From positions 1 to 26,560 of IMG/VR virus record IMGVR_UViG_3300028573_000049: a stretch of 26,560 nucleotides of DNA. One strand, given 5' to 3'. This DNA comes from a virus. The stretch's first letter is position 1. Each line of letters begins with the position of its first letter. Positions 2,871-24,845 of this stretch are shown one piece after another. The notes under the pieces were generated by a model. That model saw only the letters and a list, made by a program, of their open reading frames with translations, was not told where the DNA came from and ran no database searches. The position numbers and the translations under genes were made by a program.

Positions 2871-4613
2871 TCAATCCTGATTGTACGAAAGCCTCAAAAC
2901 AATCCCCCGAAGGGTGAATGGCAACGGATCGGACTGTGTGATGAAGAACGTAGACTCATCATCCCAATCCGCATCGAGGTCTCGGGTCAACTCCAGCGTC
3001 GGCATCTTCCCGCAGGTAATCTGTAACGGCTGTGTAATCGAAATCGCGCAACTGGCCGTCGCATTGTTCTCTAGCGAGTCCTGAACCTGTGCCGTGTATG
3101 GGTATATTCCCAATGCCGTTGGGATTCCAGTAATCGCTCCCGTGCTCGCATTGAGAGATAGTCCCGGTGGAAGTCCACCACTGATGATGGAGAATGTGTA
3201 AGGAGGCTTCCCGCCCGTCGCTACGACTGCCGAGTTGTACATAACTCCCAAATACGCAACACCCGAAGCACAAGCCAGTGACAGTGATAGTTTGAATCCG
3301 AGAATTGCCGCCTGCAACGTCCCTGTCATCGGGGAAACGTCAAACACGTTGTCGTAAGTTCCCGGGGCACTCTCTACTTGATCGGCTAGTGCAAGAGAAT
3401 ACGGATACAACTGGACGAATCCCGAATCGGAAAGCTGGAAGCGAAGGTTTCCCAAGTTTAGTGCCGGAACGAATGCCTGTTTGTCTCCTGCACCGGACAC
3501 CGGGCCACCGAAGAAACACGACACGAGCAACGAGTTCGCGGCAGATACCGGCACCCCACCTGTGTCTACAGTGCTTGATGAGCCATTCCCGAATGATGCT
3601 CCCAGATACCCAGAAACAGCCTCATACTCAGCGATGATGAGGGACAGAGAGTTGTCGTCCCCCCCGCCAAGGGTATTCATCGTTACCGAGTTCGCGCCGC
3701 CTGCACAGTTTATCGCGTAGGCCACGACTAGGCTGTTTGAAGGCGAACTCCCATCGTAGACGATGACCCATTCGTTTCCGTTCGTGTCGGTGATGACCGG
3801 GTTTAACCGCTCGATAATCATGCCGATGGCAACGAGAAGATTCCCCGCCGTGTTCGGATGCGGAAACACTGCCGTCGTCGTATCAGTGATAATCGAGGTA
3901 TTGGCAAAGCACCCAACCTGAACCAGCGGAATCGTCAGAACCGTGGGCGAGAGCGCCAATAGGACAACGGCCATCATGTCGGGAGTGCCGCTGGCAACCG
4001 ATGCGACGTTATGTTCTGATCCGCCCGACGATAGCTTGTCCCAACTAGCGGCTGACAGGAACGTGTTGCTGGCTGCTTGACGTCCCGTGAATCCCGCCGA
4101 TGCCGTGAAGGTGTACGTCGCTCCCGTGACCACAGGACTCGCCATCGCCGCCGAATAGAGCATCTGCCCACTCACGGCAGTAATTGCTAGACTATCAACC
4201 GAAGTGGAGCCGGTATCAAATGTCGTGGAGTTGAACGACGATGGACCGATAGCCGAAGCACTCGCCACACCGGAGTATTCATCAATCAGCAACCACGGCT
4301 GAACCGTTCCTCCGTAGTTTGCGGTGTACGTTACGTTGGTATCCCCACCAGCGCAGTTCAGAGCAACAAAGGTGTAGAGGATGAAGCACTGCGTTCCAGC
4401 GGCCCGAGTAACAACCGGAGACATCGTGGCCAACTGCCAAGCGTTGCCACGATTATCCGTGATCTGTGGAAATCCCTTGGCGTCCGAACTTAGCTGATTG
4501 CACCCGATAGACAGTACTAGGCAGTCTCCAGCCGTAACGCCAGAGAGAGAAACACTTCCACCGTTACCCGTTGGCCCGTAAGCCGATGCACCTTGTACGT
4601 GGGAAATGCTCAT
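2871..4613 (-). CDS. Tail-associated protein with two tandem beta domains and a putative Ig domain
   Basis: A 580-residue protein made of an internal duplication. Residues about 1-222 and 228-445 share the order GD/NCLLV..IG, ITD.(R/N)GN.W, (L/I)NCAGG(D/A)..VT and a closing (I/L)I.EY....G, consistent with two copies of a jelly-roll-like domain. Residues about 446-527 form a putative Ig domain of the PF05345 type (GGKPPYTFS, LPPGLSL, STGAITGIPT, Y..QV.D). About 50 further residues follow. The ATG overlaps the nozzle stop by ATGA (4610-4613). Placement after the nozzle gene suggests a tail spike, fibre or host-binding accessory protein. Which of these is not decided by the sequence. Confidence 0.7.
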   Translation of the reverse strand: MSISHVQGASAYGPTGNGGSVSLSGVTAGDCLVLSIGCNQLSSDAKGFPQITDNRGNAWQLATMSPVVTRAAGTQCFILYTFVALNCAGGDTNVTYTANYGGTVQPWLLIDEYSGVASASAIGPSSFNSTTFDTGSTSVDSLAITAVSGQMLYSAAMASPVVTGATYTFTASAGFTGRQAASNTFLSAASWDKLSSGGSEHNVASVASGTPDMMAVVLLALSPTVLTIPLVQVGCFANTSIITDTTTAVFPHPNTAGNLLVAIGMIIERLNPVITDTNGNEWVIVYDGSSPSNSLVVAYAINCAGGANSVTMNTLGGGDDNSLSLIIAEYEAVSGYLGASFGNGSSSTVDTGGVPVSAANSLLVSCFFGGPVSGAGDKQAFVPALNLGNLRFQLSDSGFVQLYPYSLALADQVESAPGTYDNVFDVSPMTGTLQAAILGFKLSLSLACASGVAYLGVMYNSAVVATGGKPPYTFSIISGGLPPGLSLNASTGAITGIPTALGIYPYTAQVQDSLENNATASCAISITQPLQITCGKMPTLELTRDLDADWDDESTFFITQSDPLPFTLRGIVLRLSYNQD

Positions 4614-7318
4614 GGTTGTCTCCCATGAGCGCCGGGGCCGTAAACGATGTCGTACATGTAGTCGGGGTCGTCTTTGATTCCGTACTTCCCACCCAAGGAC
4701 TGGTAGATTGAGATGGTCACTCGATTCAGCTTCTGCTTCTGACCACGCGTCGAGAATGTCGGATTGGTCACGACCGGGTTAGTCGGCTGAACCGTCATGG
4801 TGTACGGCAGTCCAATCGTGATCTGCGAACAGTAATAATCAAACGTCATCGTGTCGCTGGTTACGACTGTAGGCGGAAGGATGATGGCGCAGTCCCCGAC
4901 CGCCGTGACGGACTGGCCCAATAGGTAGTTCATGCCCGTTACTTCGTTCGTCACCGGCAAAGCCCTGCCACCACCGATGTACGTTCCCCACAGCGTCGAG
5001 TCCACATCCTGAAGCTGGAACGTACCGGATCCGGGGTCAGAACCAGCAACGATGTATGCTTGTGTCTTGTCCTGATTCACCTGCCACATCCCGCTACCAT
5101 TGGGATTATTAGGATTTGGCGGTTCCCCAATCACGGTAGAAATCTGAACGAAATCGCCGTTGGCAAAGTTCTGGCCCGGAGCTGTGACCACACAGGGATT
5201 CGCATTCGTGATTCCCGTAATGAGAACAGGAAGCCCCATCTTCAGTTGCAAGCCACAGTGAACGAAGAAGGCATTAGACAAGTCGTTGAATAGTTCCTGT
5301 GGGTAGAAGTATTCGACGTATCGTGCCTGATTGCCATTCACGATTCCACGGTTGACTTCAACAACAACCATGTCCTCTTGGCCTTCGCCGCTGATGACTG
5401 CAACCGACTCGATGATTCCGTTCTCAGGGAGCATGTTGATACGGAACCACGCGAATACCTGGTCCTGCTTGTTGAACACCAACCCGATTAGCTGACCGTC
5501 AGCACGTACTGCCCAGAAGATGGGATATGGCTCGGACTGAAAGGCCGTCTGCAAAATTCCAGACTTCATCTCATTCGGCCCAATCGTGATTTGCCGATTC
5601 AGACGAGTCAGGTCGAAACTGTTCCACTCGTTGCTTACGAAGTCAAACACGAGGAACATGACCTGCTTGGCAGAGCGAGAGACGAAGATAGCCGAGTCCC
5701 CAACAAGCTGCGGCTGCATGTTGCTGACGCCGATGGACGTTTGCTTCGCGGCTGTCACTCCCGACTGCGTGAGCGCCCCACCATTCGGCCCCGTCATAAT
5801 CCAGACGCCACCAGCCGTTCCCAAAATGAGAGCTGTGGGTGAACCAATCATGTTGATGATTTGGTCGAGCAGGGTACTCAGAAGCGTGAACTGGATGGCG
5901 TAACTGTCGTCGTTCGGATCGCAGATGAAGTTCGTAAAGTCGTTGATAGTGCTGCCGTTCATCTGCGTAGGGTTGTCGTCCGTTCCGCCAACACACAGAC
6001 GGCCCTGATAGAACGTCCCACACGCCGGGTAATTTCCTGCCGAATCGAAGAATGGAATCACCTTGACGGCGAATCCACCACCTGAATATGGAAGGAACGA
6101 AGTCGATGGAACGGGAACCGTGGACATCTGACCTGAGTAGGAATTAGACGTGCTGAGGTTGTAGACCCCAACACCTCCGGGTGTTCCCGATGCTTGCGAG
6201 ACGACTGCGGTCCCACCAGCCACACCGGGGAAGTAAACGTCCACACCGATTCCGATGAATCCAGCAGTAATTGCCGATACGTTCATCGTTAGGCCGGAGA
6301 TAGAGCCAGTCCAGATTCCCCCGCCTTGCACGTCCACAAGGTTGTAGGCGAATCCTCCGGTTCCTGTCATTCCAGTCGCCACCACCTTTTGGGGGATGTT
6401 GACCTGATACGTTCCCGTTCCACCACTGCCCGAAAGGTACTGCGTGATGATTGTGTTCGGCTGAACGTTTGGCCCCTGTACCTGCATCCCAATCAGGATG
6501 GTTCCCGACGATACTGCTGACACCGTGAGAATCAGTCCAGCGTTCGGAGTTCCTGCTGTGTCGTCAATGTGGCCGGTAAACGCCGCCGTAACACCACTGT
6601 TGAGAACTGGAACAGTAAAGAACTCACCCTGATTCAGTTCAACCATCCCTGTACATTCGTTGATGTACACGCGGTCCCCAAGCGAGAAGCCGGGAGCATC
6701 GGTAATCATCACTGCGGGAAATGCTTGGGTAATCTGGAGAATCGGAACGCCGAGAGCTGAATAGCCCGTCGTTACAATACCAGGAGTTCCACGATATGCA
6801 GGATCGCCGGGAGCGACAGGAGGGCCACCGGGGGGAGCGAGATTGTAAGTCCAGTTCGATGGCCCGTGCCGCTCCACGCAAGCCGGAGGATAGCTTGGAT
6901 GGAATATCCAGAGAACATCGGCGCTCTGTGTCGCGCAATCGAGTTGAAACAAATCCTGTTGCGTGTATGGCGTAATTAGTTGAATCGGAGTTCCGCCACT
7001 TTCGACTAGCCCCAAGTCCCAAACGCCTTCATTCGATGGGGACCAGATGCGGATGATACCGGCGGTGAACTCAAGAATCGCTCCCTGCGTAGTCGAGAAC
7101 TGAAAAGGAATGAGACGGGCCGGAGCCAGATTGTTCTGTGTCTTCCCGGCAAAGTATGTACCGGGCATCTTCTTGGCCCCGCCTTCGACAAGCGGAAAGC
7201 AGTTCTCCATCACCCGGCAGGATGATTTGTACTTGGCGATGTCCTCCCGATTGAACAGGAGTTCTGAAATCTCACCCCCATTGAACGTGTTAACGCTGTG
7301 GTAGATTTTCTGACCCAT
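4610..7318 (-). CDS. Tail tubular protein B / nozzle (gp12-like)
   Basis: A 902-residue protein. Its opening is characteristic of podovirus nozzle proteins: FNGGEISELLFNREDIAKY, then C..MENCFPLVEGGAKKMPGT, then a strand run ILEFTAGIIRIW. Further typical parts are the FYQGRLCVGG segment around residue 435 and MQPQLVGDSAIFVSRSAKQV in the middle. These proteins form the hexameric tail nozzle below the adaptor ring. Two copies of a small beta module are inserted around residues 245-315 and 335-400. The gene starts directly after the adaptor stop, with a GGGGAGG sequence about ten bases before the ATG, and ends in an ATGA overlap with the next gene. Confidence 0.88.
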   Translation of the reverse strand: MGQKIYHSVNTFNGGEISELLFNREDIAKYKSSCRVMENCFPLVEGGAKKMPGTYFAGKTQNNLAPARLIPFQFSTTQGAILEFTAGIIRIWSPSNEGVWDLGLVESGGTPIQLITPYTQQDLFQLDCATQSADVLWIFHPSYPPACVERHGPSNWTYNLAPPGGPPVAPGDPAYRGTPGIVTTGYSALGVPILQITQAFPAVMITDAPGFSLGDRVYINECTGMVELNQGEFFTVPVLNSGVTAAFTGHIDDTAGTPNAGLILTVSAVSSGTILIGMQVQGPNVQPNTIITQYLSGSGGTGTYQVNIPQKVVATGMTGTGGFAYNLVDVQGGGIWTGSISGLTMNVSAITAGFIGIGVDVYFPGVAGGTAVVSQASGTPGGVGVYNLSTSNSYSGQMSTVPVPSTSFLPYSGGGFAVKVIPFFDSAGNYPACGTFYQGRLCVGGTDDNPTQMNGSTINDFTNFICDPNDDSYAIQFTLLSTLLDQIINMIGSPTALILGTAGGVWIMTGPNGGALTQSGVTAAKQTSIGVSNMQPQLVGDSAIFVSRSAKQVMFLVFDFVSNEWNSFDLTRLNRQITIGPNEMKSGILQTAFQSEPYPIFWAVRADGQLIGLVFNKQDQVFAWFRINMLPENGIIESVAVISGEGQEDMVVVEVNRGIVNGNQARYVEYFYPQELFNDLSNAFFVHCGLQLKMGLPVLITGITNANPCVVTAPGQNFANGDFVQISTVIGEPPNPNNPNGSGMWQVNQDKTQAYIVAGSDPGSGTFQLQDVDSTLWGTYIGGGRALPVTNEVTGMNYLLGQSVTAVGDCAIILPPTVVTSDTMTFDYYCSQITIGLPYTMTVQPTNPVVTNPTFSTRGQKQKLNRVTISIYQSLGGKYGIKDDPDYMYDIVYGPGAHGRQP
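6119..6586 (-). repeat. Two tandem copies of a small beta module inside the nozzle gene
   Basis: Codons for residues about 245-315 (6374-6586) and 335-400 (6119-6316) encode divergent copies of one module. It has the pattern strand-LTVSA(V/I), S/T-x-G-x-I-x-I-G-x-x-V, a Gly-rich turn and G.G.Y.(V/L). The copies align at protein level but have clearly diverged in DNA. A third copy lies in the adaptor gene (7670-7867). Confidence 0.6.
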
Positions 7319-21300: not shown

Positions 21301-21467
21301 ACGCCCTGACCCGCCGCTCTCGCCCTGAGCTGTCGCTGGCTGTCCTGATCGAAGCTGTGACGGATGCGCTGGGCCTGGTCGCATTCATGGCAGCGTGCTG
21401 GGCCGCGCTGTGGGCGGTACAACATTCGAGTGACGTGGCCTATTGGCTGCGGATGCTGGGGAGGTGA
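21297..21467 (+). CDS. Small single-pass membrane protein
   Basis: A 56-residue protein. A basic N-terminus (MNALTRRSRPEL) precedes one hydrophobic helix, roughly residues 22-42 (TDALGLVAFMAACWAALWAV), with a short polar tail ending LRMLGR. By the positive-inside rule the N-terminus is cytoplasmic. It starts by ATGA overlap behind GAGGTGG. It may be an inner-membrane accessory or holin-like peptide, but nothing identifies it. Confidence 0.62.
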   Translation: MNALTRRSRPELSLAVLIEAVTDALGLVAFMAACWAALWAVQHSSDVAYWLRMLGR

Positions 21468-21471
21468 GAAC

Positions 21472-21612
21472 GTGAGCGACATTCCCATTGCAAGGTATGA
21501 CTTCGACCCAAACGATTATTGTGACCTATGTGGGTATCTCGTGGAGGAATGCCAGTGTGGAGAAATCTGCATCGACTGCGGGTGCCCGATTGCCGAATGT
21601 AGATGTGAATAA
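21472..21612 (+). CDS. Cys-rich mini-protein with two metal-knuckle repeats
   Basis: Starts at GTG 21472 with GGGGAGG about eight bases upstream and gives 46 residues. Two repeats stand side by side: YCDLCGYLVEECQCGE and CIDCGCPIAECRCE, each with C-x2-C-G/x, a short helix or turn and C-x-C-x. Nine Cys in 30 residues make metal binding very likely. The N-terminal 16 residues are acidic and aromatic. No family recognised. Confidence 0.65.
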   Translation: MSDIPIARYDFDPNDYCDLCGYLVEECQCGEICIDCGCPIAECRCE

Positions 21613-21921: not shown

Positions 21922-22055
21922 CCATCCTCACCTGCTTGCCCTACATCGTCGCCACGTTCCTTGGCGGCTGTACCTGTGGCTGTGCTCTCGCGCTCTGGCT
22001 GCACAAAACCGGAGAGCGCGACTGCTCCGACTGGCACATCAGCGGAGAGAAATAA
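21918..22055 (+). CDS. Small Cys-rich membrane protein
   Basis: A 45-residue protein. Residues 3-29 are hydrophobic with Cys at 6, 18, 20 and 22 (LPYIVATFLGGCTCGCALAL), then a polar tail HKTGERDCSDWHISGEK. It is probably single-pass with Cys in or near the membrane. A lipoprotein signal is unlikely since no lipobox of L-x-x-C with small residues fits a cleavage site well. It overlaps the previous gene by ATGA. The function is unknown. Confidence 0.55.
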   Translation: MTILTCLPYIVATFLGGCTCGCALALWLHKTGERDCSDWHISGEK

Positions 22056-22136
22056 ATGCCCGTTAGTGCCTTGCACTGTTGGTGGTGGTGGTGGCAATAT
22101 GGACTACATGAAAAACAACACTTTGAAGTGCCGTAA
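22056..22136 (+). CDS. 26-codon leader-like ORF with five consecutive Trp codons
   Basis: ATG 22056 follows the previous stop directly (TAAATG), with GGAGAG about eight bases upstream. It encodes MPVSALHCWWWWWQYGLHEK and six more residues before TAA at 22134-22136. Five TGG codons occupy 22080-22094, and the ATG of the zinc-ribbon gene lies at 22099 in another frame, just past them. A ribosome slowed on the Trp run would therefore sit over the next start. It may be a regulatory leader peptide or a chance frame over a GGT repeat. Confidence 0.35.
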   Translation: MPVSALHCWWWWWQYGLHEKQHFEVP

Positions 22137-22227
22137 GTGCGGCGCGGACTGGGAACAGCGCAAGCCTACGAAGCCCGTTAAGTGTCCGCGCTGCTGGAGT
22201 CCCAACTGGGACAGGAGAGCCAAGTGA
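22099..22227 (+). CDS. Small zinc-ribbon protein
   Basis: A 42-residue protein from ATG 22099 (a second ATG at 22108). LKCRKCGADWEQRK, then VKCPRCWSPNWDRR, give two C-x2-C knuckles separated by 14 residues with the usual Trp and Arg/Lys-Pro positions of short rubredoxin-like zinc ribbons. Many such proteins bind DNA or accompany other small regulators. Its ribosome site would be the GGTGG run, which also encodes the Trp run of the overlapping ORF. The stop overlaps the next GTG. Confidence 0.65.
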   Translation: MDYMKNNTLKCRKCGADWEQRKPTKPVKCPRCWSPNWDRRAK

Positions 22228-22469
22228 CGAAAATCTCACAGCGTCAAGCTCGATGGTATCGCCGTGAGGCTAACCGATTGGCTGAAATCCTCAAAAATCA
22301 GCGGCGGTCGTGGCCGAAAGAGTGGCCGTCAAGTACTGTTCTTGGCCGCCTCGACGTAGGCGATAGAGCACTTGCCATCGTGGAAACTGCCCGGCGCTTA
22401 AATCATGCCGTAGTAGTAGTGAACGATGGCAGAACACTAATCATGTTTGGCATGGAGGCAGGGAAATGA
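22224..22469 (+). CDS. Hypothetical protein
   Basis: Starts at GTG 22224, overlapping the previous TGA, with AGGAG seven bases upstream; 81 residues. The N-terminal half is basic and helical (QRQARWYRREANRLAEILKN, then QRRSWPKEWPSS). The C-terminal half has a strand-helix-strand look (LGRLDVGDRALAIVETARRL, then AVVVVNDGRTLIMFG). No family recognised. An earlier ATG at 22182 lies inside the zinc-ribbon gene and is unlikely. Confidence 0.62.
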   Translation: MTKISQRQARWYRREANRLAEILKNQRRSWPKEWPSSTVLGRLDVGDRALAIVETARRLNHAVVVVNDGRTLIMFGMEAGK

Positions 22470-22672
22470 CAACCGAACAGAAACTGAAAGACGCGAAGTG
22501 GGAGCTGGCGTATCACGAGAAGGAATCCCAATCCCATCAACTCAAAGCCCAAGCGTTCCGCCTGTTGAAAGACGAACTGGAGCGCACTCTTTCATTCGAG
22601 CAGATGCTGGCCGAAACTAAGGCCGAAGTTAACGCCAAGCTGACGAAAATTACGGAAGGGATACGGCAATGA
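22466..22672 (+). CDS. Coiled-coil hypothetical protein
   Basis: A 68-residue protein that is nearly all helix and highly charged (EQKLKDAKWELAYHEKESQS, then LLKDELERTLSFEQMLAETK). It has heptad-like spacing of Leu and Ala and probably dimerises. It starts by ATGA overlap with the previous gene and ends by ATGA overlap with the DUF7666-type gene. No function recognised. Confidence 0.65.
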   Translation: MTTEQKLKDAKWELAYHEKESQSHQLKAQAFRLLKDELERTLSFEQMLAETKAEVNAKLTKITEGIRQ

Positions 22673-23385
22673 CGCGCTTTTACCACTTCACGGGCAAGAC
22701 GCTGCGCGATGGTAATCCTATCCCGCCGATTGGCGAATGGCTGGAGTATAAGGGCAAAGTCATTATGTGCAAGTCGGGATTGCACGCTAGCCCTACCGCT
22801 TTCGATGCCCTTCAATATGCTCCCGGCGAGTTCCTCCACCTTGTTGAATTGGACGGCGAAATTATCCACGAGGGCGACAAGTCGGTAGCATCTAGGCGAA
22901 AGATCGTGGCGACCATCGACGCTACCGATTTACTTCGCAAGTTCGCCCGTACCGTCGCCTTAAAAGTTATTCACCTTTGGGATGCTCCCGCCGTCGTTCG
23001 TGAATACCTAGAGACTGGCGACGAAGGTAAGCGGGCTGCTGCGTGGGATGCTGCGTGGGCTGCTGCGCGGGCTGCTGCGCGGGCTGCTGCGCGGGCTGCT
23101 GAGTGGGATGCTGCGTGGGATGCTGAGCGGGCTGCTGAGCGGGCTGCTGCGCGGGCTGCTGCGTGGGATGCTGCGTGGGATGCTGCGGCGGCTGCTGCGC
23201 GGGCTGCTGAGCGGGATGCTGCGCTGGCTGCTGCGTGGGATGCTGCGGCGGCTGCTGCGCGGGCTGCTGAGCGGGATGCTGCGCTGGCTGCTGCGTGGGA
23301 TGCTGCGTGGGATGCTGAGCGGGCTGAATATAAAGCCATCTTCAACGCTATGGTTGGCGAAGCCTTTTCGGAGGTGAAGCAATGA
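22669..23385 (+). CDS. DUF7666-type phage protein with long Ala-rich repeat tail
   Basis: A 238-residue protein. Residues 1-115 match the uncharacterised DUF7666 type: GEWLEYKGKVIMCKSGLHAS, ALQYAPG, VELDGEII, SRRKIVATIDATDLLRKFAR and VVREYLETGDE. Residues 123-218 are 24 tetrapeptides of the form [A/D]A[A/E][W/R/L/A], certainly one continuous helix. The last 20 residues (AEYKAIFNAMVGEAF) are less repetitive and resemble the usual family tail. Members of this family are frequent in phage early regions and often end in such Ala/Trp/Arg repeats. The function is unknown. Confidence 0.75.
   Translation: MTRFYHFTGKTLRDGNPIPPIGEWLEYKGKVIMCKSGLHASPTAFDALQYAPGEFLHLVELDGEIIHEGDKSVASRRKIVATIDATDLLRKFARTVALKVIHLWDAPAVVREYLETGDEGKRAAAWDAAWAAARAAARAAARAAEWDAAWDAERAAERAAARAAAWDAAWDAAAAAARAAERDAALAAAWDAAAAAARAAERDAALAAAWDAAWDAERAEYKAIFNAMVGEAFSEVKQ
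23035..23322 (+). repeat. 12-bp tandem repeat tract with a perfect 60-bp duplication
   Basis: Twenty-four units of 12 bases with the consensus G[A/C]TGCTG[A/C]G[C/T]GG encode the Ala-rich tail. Within it, 23179-23238 and 23239-23298 are identical 60-bp copies, which indicates recent slippage or unequal recombination. The tract is open in several frames on both strands because of its period and lack of TA-containing codons. Confidence 0.85.
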
Positions 23386-23402
23386 GCTGGGCTGACCAAT
23401 GA
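23382..23402 (+). CDS. Six-codon relay cistron (MSWADQ)
   Basis: ATG 23382 overlaps the stop of the repeat-protein gene (ATGA). Six codons later the TGA (23400-23402) overlaps the ATG of the next gene (ATGA at 23399). The GGAGGTGAAGC just upstream is a good ribosome site for 23382, while the gene at 23399 has none of its own. The mini-frame would carry ribosomes across the gap. Confidence 0.45.
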   Translation: MSWADQ

Positions 23403-23581
23403 GCAAGGATGTGATCCACGATTGCCCAGAATGCGGCTTGTCCTGTACCTGCGATGACTACGAAATCTGCGGCCAGTGCTGGCATGAATGCCAACACCCC
23501 GGCGCATGGAAAGAGAACCCCGATTGCCTGTCGAACCGCGACTGGAACGGGATGCCAATATCGAGCATTGAGGAGGAGTAA
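23399..23581 (+). CDS. Cys-rich small hypothetical protein
   Basis: A 60-residue protein. CPECGLSCTCDDYEICGQCWHE, read in parts as CPEC, CTC, C-x2-C and then ECQH, gives eight Cys and several His within 35 residues. A double zinc-knuckle protein is the natural reading. The C-terminus is acidic (ISSIEEE). Its ATG lacks a ribosome site and is reached through the six-codon cistron, and its own end (GAGGAGGAG) is the ribosome site for the annealase gene. Confidence 0.65.
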   Translation: MSKDVIHDCPECGLSCTCDDYEICGQCWHECQHPGAWKENPDCLSNRDWNGMPISSIEEE

Positions 23582-23582
23582 A

Positions 23583-24845
23583 GTGAGCACTGCAACGGAT
23601 GGACTGATCGGTATGGACAAGTCCGACAACAGCAAACTTATCAAGGCTCTTGCCGAAGCCTGTGACGCCGTGGGAGGCGTCGAAAAGAAGGGCACTAACG
23701 AGGCGCAGCGGTATAAGTACGTCAAGGCTGCCGACATCGCCAAAGCAATCCGCCATGAACTGTTCGGGCGGGGAATCGTCATCCTCCAGAGTGAGCATGA
23801 ACCGGACTTCGTTGAGGTTCAGCTTGCGCCGGATCGTGACGGCAAGCCGCGCTCCACTTTCGAGGTTCGCATCTGTACCGACTACACGCTAACAGATGGC
23901 GTAGGAAGCGTTACGTTGAGCGGATGGGGGGTGGCTAGAGATTCGGGCGACAAGGCCATCTGGAAGGCAAAGACGGGCGCCCTCAAGTACTTCCTGAGAG
24001 GCATCGGACTTATCCCCGACGAAAAGGAAGACCCTGAGTACGACAAGGGCGAGAAACCTGAATCCCGCGACGAAATGGGAGAGATGGATCAGGATAGCCA
24101 CGGTGTCATCCGACTGGCCGGAATCCTTGAGGAAGAAAAGCAGTCGAAAGACAACTTCTGGTACAAGGTCAGGACGCTGGACGAAGATGGGCGCGAAACG
24201 CTGGTCTACGTGGTTTCCCCCGTTGCCAGCGATTCAGGCCGCTTGGCCGAACGCGTCGGCTGGTTGGTGGACCTCCAGGTTCGCCCGACAGAGACGACCA
24301 AAGCCGGAGTCTTTACGCTGGTCAAGGTGCTGAACGTCCGCAAGCCTGTTACGTCGGTGAACCCTCCTAGCGCATCACCCACCCAAACCGAGCAGGCCGA
24401 CTTAATGACTTCAGAGATTGCGAGGCCAGGGCCATCTTGTAAAGAGTGTGGCTCAACATTCGGCATCCACAAGGTAACCTGCCCCAACTTTCGCTGCAAG
24501 CAGTGCGGGGCTACGGGGAAATCACCCGATCATCACGGAGGCTGCCCCAAATCAGTCGAGCAGGCCAGCGGTGCGCCTGAACCTGCTCCGCTTTTCGAGG
24601 ATGACGACAACCTGACGAAGATCGCGTGCCACGTCACCGACACTGAGAAGCGAACCACGAAGGCGAAGAAGCCGTATTGGTTGCTGCAATGCGCCGTAGA
24701 GGGCGCTGGTGAGCTTCCCGTACACGTTTGGGACTCCAAGCTGTTTGACCGCGCCCAAGCCCTTCTGGGCAAGGATGCGACGCTTGGCTGCCGTCGTAGC
24801 GAGAAGGATGACAAGGTGTATTACGCTTTGGAGCAGATTTACTGA
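23583..24845 (+). CDS. ERF-type single-strand annealing protein with OB-zinc-OB extension
   Basis: Starts at GTG 23583 behind GGAGGAG; 420 residues. Residues 15-150 match the ERF family: LIKALAEACDAVGGV, NEAQRYKYVKAADIAKAIRH, SVTLSGWGVARDSGDKAIWK and ALKYFLRGIGLIPDEKEDPE. Residues about 172-255 have five short strands (VIRLAGILEE to FTLVKVLNV) like an OB fold. Residues 286-321 carry two zinc knuckles, C-x2-C-x6-H-x3-C and C-x2-C-x9-H-x2-C. Residues about 345-420 (KIACHVTDTE to YYALEQIY) look like a second OB fold. ERF proteins anneal complementary strands in phage recombination. The tail probably adds single-strand binding. The OB reading is inference. Confidence 0.82.
   Translation: MSTATDGLIGMDKSDNSKLIKALAEACDAVGGVEKKGTNEAQRYKYVKAADIAKAIRHELFGRGIVILQSEHEPDFVEVQLAPDRDGKPRSTFEVRICTDYTLTDGVGSVTLSGWGVARDSGDKAIWKAKTGALKYFLRGIGLIPDEKEDPEYDKGEKPESRDEMGEMDQDSHGVIRLAGILEEEKQSKDNFWYKVRTLDEDGRETLVYVVSPVASDSGRLAERVGWLVDLQVRPTETTKAGVFTLVKVLNVRKPVTSVNPPSASPTQTEQADLMTSEIARPGPSCKECGSTFGIHKVTCPNFRCKQCGATGKSPDHHGGCPKSVEQASGAPEPAPLFEDDDNLTKIACHVTDTEKRTTKAKKPYWLLQCAVEGAGELPVHVWDSKLFDRAQALLGKDATLGCRRSEKDDKVYYALEQIY

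Follow-up and report, generated by a model that had tools for sequence, protein, structure and literature searches.

The DNA analysed here, IMG/VR virus record IMGVR_UViG_3300028573_000049 over its full 26,560 bases (hereafter the window), is a linear 26.6-kb piece and hence a genome fragment, whose minus strand encodes a terminase, a head-tail connector and tail proteins recognised by Pfam or PHROG matches, while the gene of interest lies on the plus strand. This gene runs uninterrupted from a GTG at 23583 to a stop at 24845, with a Shine-Dalgarno-like GAGGAGGAG (23570-23578, plus strand, read directly from the sequence) 4 bases 5′ of the start, and encodes a protein of 420 residues in which an ERF-family single-strand annealing domain is followed by a tail made up of a predicted oligonucleotide/oligosaccharide-binding (OB) fold (OB1), a linker, two putative zinc-binding motifs and a second predicted OB fold (OB2). 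The coding signal extends along the whole frame: GC content at codon positions 1/2/3 is 0.64/0.39/0.75 in OB1 and 0.59/0.39/0.73 in OB2, resembling the 0.62/0.41/0.68 of the ERF part, so that the tail is very probably coding sequence. We read the product, with a probability of roughly 0.6, as the ERF annealase of a tailed phage with a built-in tail akin to a single-stranded DNA (ssDNA)-binding protein (SSB).

Residues 21-165 (23643-24077, plus strand) are assigned from sequence to the ERF annealase domain, and the initial annotation, which had proposed an ERF annealase in this one frame, is borne out on both counts. The Pfam ERF profile (PF04404) scores 25.5 bits, just over its curated cut-off of 25 (E 1.5e-5), the Erf-like annealing protein family phrog_155 matches with an E-value of 7.8e-15, and the domain is 54-77% identical to those of relatives in IMG/VR, one of which (L001, see below) reaches 33.2 bits against the same Pfam profile. 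The protein shares with its family (PF04404, PHROG 155; phage P22 Erf type) this N-terminal domain and an early-gene setting, and differs in what follows: the C-x2-C motif, present twice here, is absent from all ten reference ERF proteins (from annotated phages and a plasmid), and none of their tails resembles OB1 or OB2 in sequence.

For the tail, the argument rests on predicted structure. AlphaFold2 was run on the whole protein with an alignment of 4 sequences and on residues 272-420 as a single sequence. In the first model OB1 (residues 176-253; 24108-24341, plus strand) has strands at residues 176-187, 192-199, 205-212, 228-235 and 243-253, with short helical turns before the fourth and a predicted local distance difference test score (pLDDT) of about 63-82; OB2 (residues 343-420; 24609-24842, plus strand) shows the same strand order with pLDDT of about 62-78 for most of its length, and when residues 272-420 are modelled alone the last domain again comes out as three strands, a helix and two strands, at about 70-81. 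The five strands with a helix between the third and fourth, by which the fold class is defined, are thus predicted for both segments with moderate confidence. Foldseek searches of the Protein Data Bank (PDB) returned CST/CTC1, the p204 HIN domain, Pot1, Cdc13, SSB, RPA32 and PolD DP1 as best matches for the whole model, and LEF-3, Rim1, PriB, SSB, Teb1, Rpa1, IF1 and similar proteins for the zinc-OB2 model, which we take to be nearly all OB-fold proteins and mostly ssDNA binders; some of the single-domain matches to the whole model probably fall on OB1. The initial annotation had made its view of the tail depend on OB folds being predicted there, and both segments do come out with OB topology and with OB-fold ssDNA-binding proteins as structural neighbours. 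Two further structural matches in BFVD, A0A6G5YK83 (403 columns) and A0A8S5SHZ3 (326 columns), span most of the protein's length and could share its architecture.

Several observations weigh against this interpretation. Mean pLDDT is low (59 and 56) and falls below 50 in the linkers and zinc region; the PDB matches reach only modest E-values, at best 3.6e-4 with a root-mean-square deviation above 25 over several domains and 0.004 for OB2, and for this reason we place weight on the consistent fold class and not on any one match. Neither OB segment has a sequence match in Pfam, PHROG, NCBIfam or the PDB, so the profile search that the initial annotation had suggested came back empty, and OB2 and the zinc motifs occur in no other sequence searched and hence lack the support of conservation. 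OB folds, moreover, also bind RNA, proteins and sugars. On the other side, OB folds often escape recognition by sequence, so that a missing sequence family does not exclude the fold. The low overall confidence, the alignments of 4 sequences and of 1, and the missing profile match would also suit a tail of beta-rich segments of another kind, such as SH3-like barrels, weak data having pulled AlphaFold2 towards a common fold; the five strands and helix of the second segment recur in both runs, however, and nearly everything that Foldseek matched is an OB fold, and we hold this alternative to be improbable. Both tail segments are accordingly described here as predicted OB folds of moderate confidence.

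The two segments had been said to share a sequence pattern. Both of the motifs cited, EEEK...FWY...VYVV and TEKR...PYW...VHVW, do occur in the translation, but the supposed kinship dissolves on comparison: the Smith-Waterman score lies below the shuffle mean (z -0.8), with 82-84% of 2000 shuffles scoring equally or better, and hhalign gives a probability of 0.1%. An internal sequence repeat of OB1 and OB2 is therefore rejected; the likeness of the segments appears to lie in their predicted order of secondary structure, and the quoted pattern may be an echo of the common fold, or chance.

Between the OB folds lie a low-complexity linker (residues 254-285; 24342-24437, plus strand; pLDDT mostly below 50; isoelectric point (pI) 4.1 for residues 257-285) and, found by motif scan, two CCHC putative zinc-binding motifs (residues 286-300 and 305-321; 24438-24545, plus strand). 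The first, C286-C289-H296-C300, has the spacing C-x2-C-x6-H-x3-C, the second, C305-C308-H317/H318-C321, the spacing C-x2-C-x8/9-H-x3/2-C. The two zinc knuckles of the initial annotation are thus present as C-x2-C...H...C motifs but depart, both of them, from the canonical knuckle spacing C-x2-C-x4-H-x4-C. Their likeness to each other (CKECGST and CKQCGAT) makes them look like a short duplication. Matches to zinc-domain profiles are weak (Zn_ribbon_LapB, 0.007, under cut-off) and neither AlphaFold2 run models the region confidently; the motifs may bind zinc.

The order OB-zinc-OB also invites comparison with RPA, drawn already in the initial annotation, and in its strongest form the protein would be an RPA homologue fused to ERF. 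The order does recall archaeal Rpa, for example HvoRpa3, with one OB fold, a zinc finger and a C-terminal DBD-C (PMC8329085), and RPA subunits occur among the structural matches. In RPA and archaeal Rpa1-like proteins, however, strands 1 and 2 of DBD-C, their last OB fold, are separated by a single C4/C3H zinc finger (PMC8329085), whereas the present protein has two CCHC motifs, both N-terminal to an OB2 whose five strands are all there, without interruption, in the model, and there is no sequence match to an RPA family. On zinc position and the absent sequence match we reject membership of RPA, and regard such homology as very unlikely. What stands is an analogy: RPA and Rpa1-like proteins likewise combine multiple OB folds with zinc on a single chain, though without an annealase domain, and the annealase tail may work similarly.

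Comparison with relatives suggests that the tail is a variable module. One relative, present in two IMG/VR records, 3300036876_000045 (L001) and 3300037169_000023 (L002), shares ERF and OB1 with the window protein (63% identity over residues 16-276, 53% in OB1 alone), with dN/dS against L001 of about 0.11 in ERF and 0.23 in OB1, at a dS close to saturation; W193, Y194 and Y209, aromatic residues on the predicted OB1 strands, are retained in L001. Like the window, L001 and L002 have a small cysteine-rich open reading frame (ORF) upstream, but their protein ends in a short tail, about 55 residues long, where the present one has zinc motifs and OB2. The rest of the 27.5-kb L002 contig matches the window only in 78 residues of one structural protein. 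In two further records, L004 and L005, the ERF part alone is shared (54-59%), and a different C-terminal segment occupies the tail position. The L001 tail shows no detectable sequence relationship to those of L004 and L005, and we do not propose that they have a helical tail in common. From relatives with ERF-OB1 only, relatives with ERF only and the ten reference proteins without such a tail, we conclude from sequence that the tail is modular, the arrangements being ERF with other tails, ERF-OB and ERF-OB-zinc-OB, the last seen once among the sequences examined. Searches with OB2 and the zinc segment gave no relatives in viral contigs, nor in annotated phages, where the best E was 1; OB1 used alone found none, and as a profile returned only the L001/L002 relative. 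A pattern-based search of a genome collection found no relative, and the ERF motif searched as a DNA pattern gave no match but was probably too strict, since known members hold the motif only in part. No description of an ERF-OB fusion was found in the literature searched, which is weak evidence of absence.

OB1, the zinc segment and OB2 are basic (pI 8.3, 8.9 and 8.5), against about 4.1 in the linkers and 5.3 in the ERF domain, but this is mild support for an SSB-like tail, because 18% of 80-residue segments from other window proteins are equally basic; aromatics lie on the predicted strands of OB2 (Y365, W366) as they do on those of OB1. These features bear on the main rival, in which the tail with its OB folds and zinc motifs would serve to dock partners such as an exonuclease, host SSB or polymerase and not to bind ssDNA, replacing a helical recruiting C-terminal domain like that of Red-beta. 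OB folds and zinc knuckles mediate protein contacts too, the close relatives L004 and L005 carry a different C-terminal segment at the same place, and the work on Red-beta (PMC8303780) counts in its favour; the basic charge and the aromatics on the predicted OB strands, on the other hand, fit nucleic acid, and ssDNA binders make up most of the structural matches, so that we judge the docking reading rather unlikely. Neither SSB family PF00436 nor PF10991 was found in the window (annealase included for PF00436) or in four related records, all of which may be fragments, and a PHROGs scan of small window ORFs gave no SSB; the initial annotation's remark that no separate SSB is encoded in the window thus stands, but means little for a linear 26.6-kb piece. 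A YqaJ exonuclease partner was likewise absent from these five records, possibly fragments. In favour of the SSB-like reading, 3 of 10 other ERF loci have an SSB gene annotated no more than about 700 bases from erf.

The surroundings of the gene have features of their own. Small cysteine-rich ORFs, probably zinc proteins, lie nearby (21364-21612, 21961-22227 and 23399-23581), and a similar cysteine-containing ORF lies 5′ of erf in L001 (3154-3444). A tandem array of a 12-base unit with a 60-base higher period (23030-23326, about 5 copies) sits within ORF 22669-23385, where it encodes an Ala/Trp/Asp/Arg repeat; the N-terminal part of this ORF matches DUF7666 (8.3e-11). Other frames are open there too, including minus-strand ORFs of 132 and 275 residues. 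Near erf in L001 are three arrays (1559-1746, 2082-2374 and 5133-5348) of the 9-base unit ACTGCTCCG, one frame of which encodes Cys/Asp repeats of the DCxDCSDC type. L004 shares more than ERF with the window, since ORF 22182-22469, of unknown function, is 53% identical over 86 residues to L004 6033-6290. Farther away on the minus strand, a tail protein (4610-7318, phrog_376) has a short segment that matches the ubiquitin-activating E1 FCCH domain (6e-7, just over the Pfam cut-off).

Returning to the reading of the protein as an annealase with an SSB-like tail, the usual small C-terminal region would here be replaced by a chain of modules, an OB fold, two CCHC zinc motifs and another OB fold. 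By analogy with other Rad52-superfamily annealases, the ERF domain would form an oligomer that pairs complementary strands, and the tail would hold ssDNA and keep the strand open, taking on in cis the role that other phage annealases leave to a separate SSB in trans; we infer that it binds ssDNA and affects annealing. More tentatively, and with some doubt, the protein could be a complete single-polypeptide annealase-SSB, an ERF ring or filament with two OB folds per subunit that loads, opens and anneals without host or phage SSB, and if so it would be free of the host-specific SSB contact that other phage annealases need.

To our knowledge, ICP8 of herpes simplex virus (HSV) is unrelated to ERF. 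It is a single viral protein that both binds ssDNA and anneals it (PMC13137030). In Rad52-superfamily annealases the N-terminal domain anneals and C-terminal parts serve partner contacts (PMC11783212). The C-terminal domain of Red-beta binds host SSB, a contact needed for recombination in vivo (PMC8303780), and full activity of Sak4 requires the cognate phage SSB (PMC5928155). Annealing is thus coupled to an OB-fold ssDNA binder in Sak4-SSB of HK620 and in Red-beta with host SSB, as proposed here, but there the contact between two proteins is made by the tail of SSB or by a C-terminal domain of helical type (PMC5928155; PMC8303780), whereas here the predicted OB folds lie inside the annealase. 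One protein would do a job usually shared by two, a plausible and modestly unusual variant. Phage annealases serve genome engineering, and both Sak4 and Red-beta are documented to depend on an SSB partner. With an annealase that has OB folds of its own, one could test whether a single chain can take in that dependence; such a protein would also show annealase tails to be exchangeable modules.
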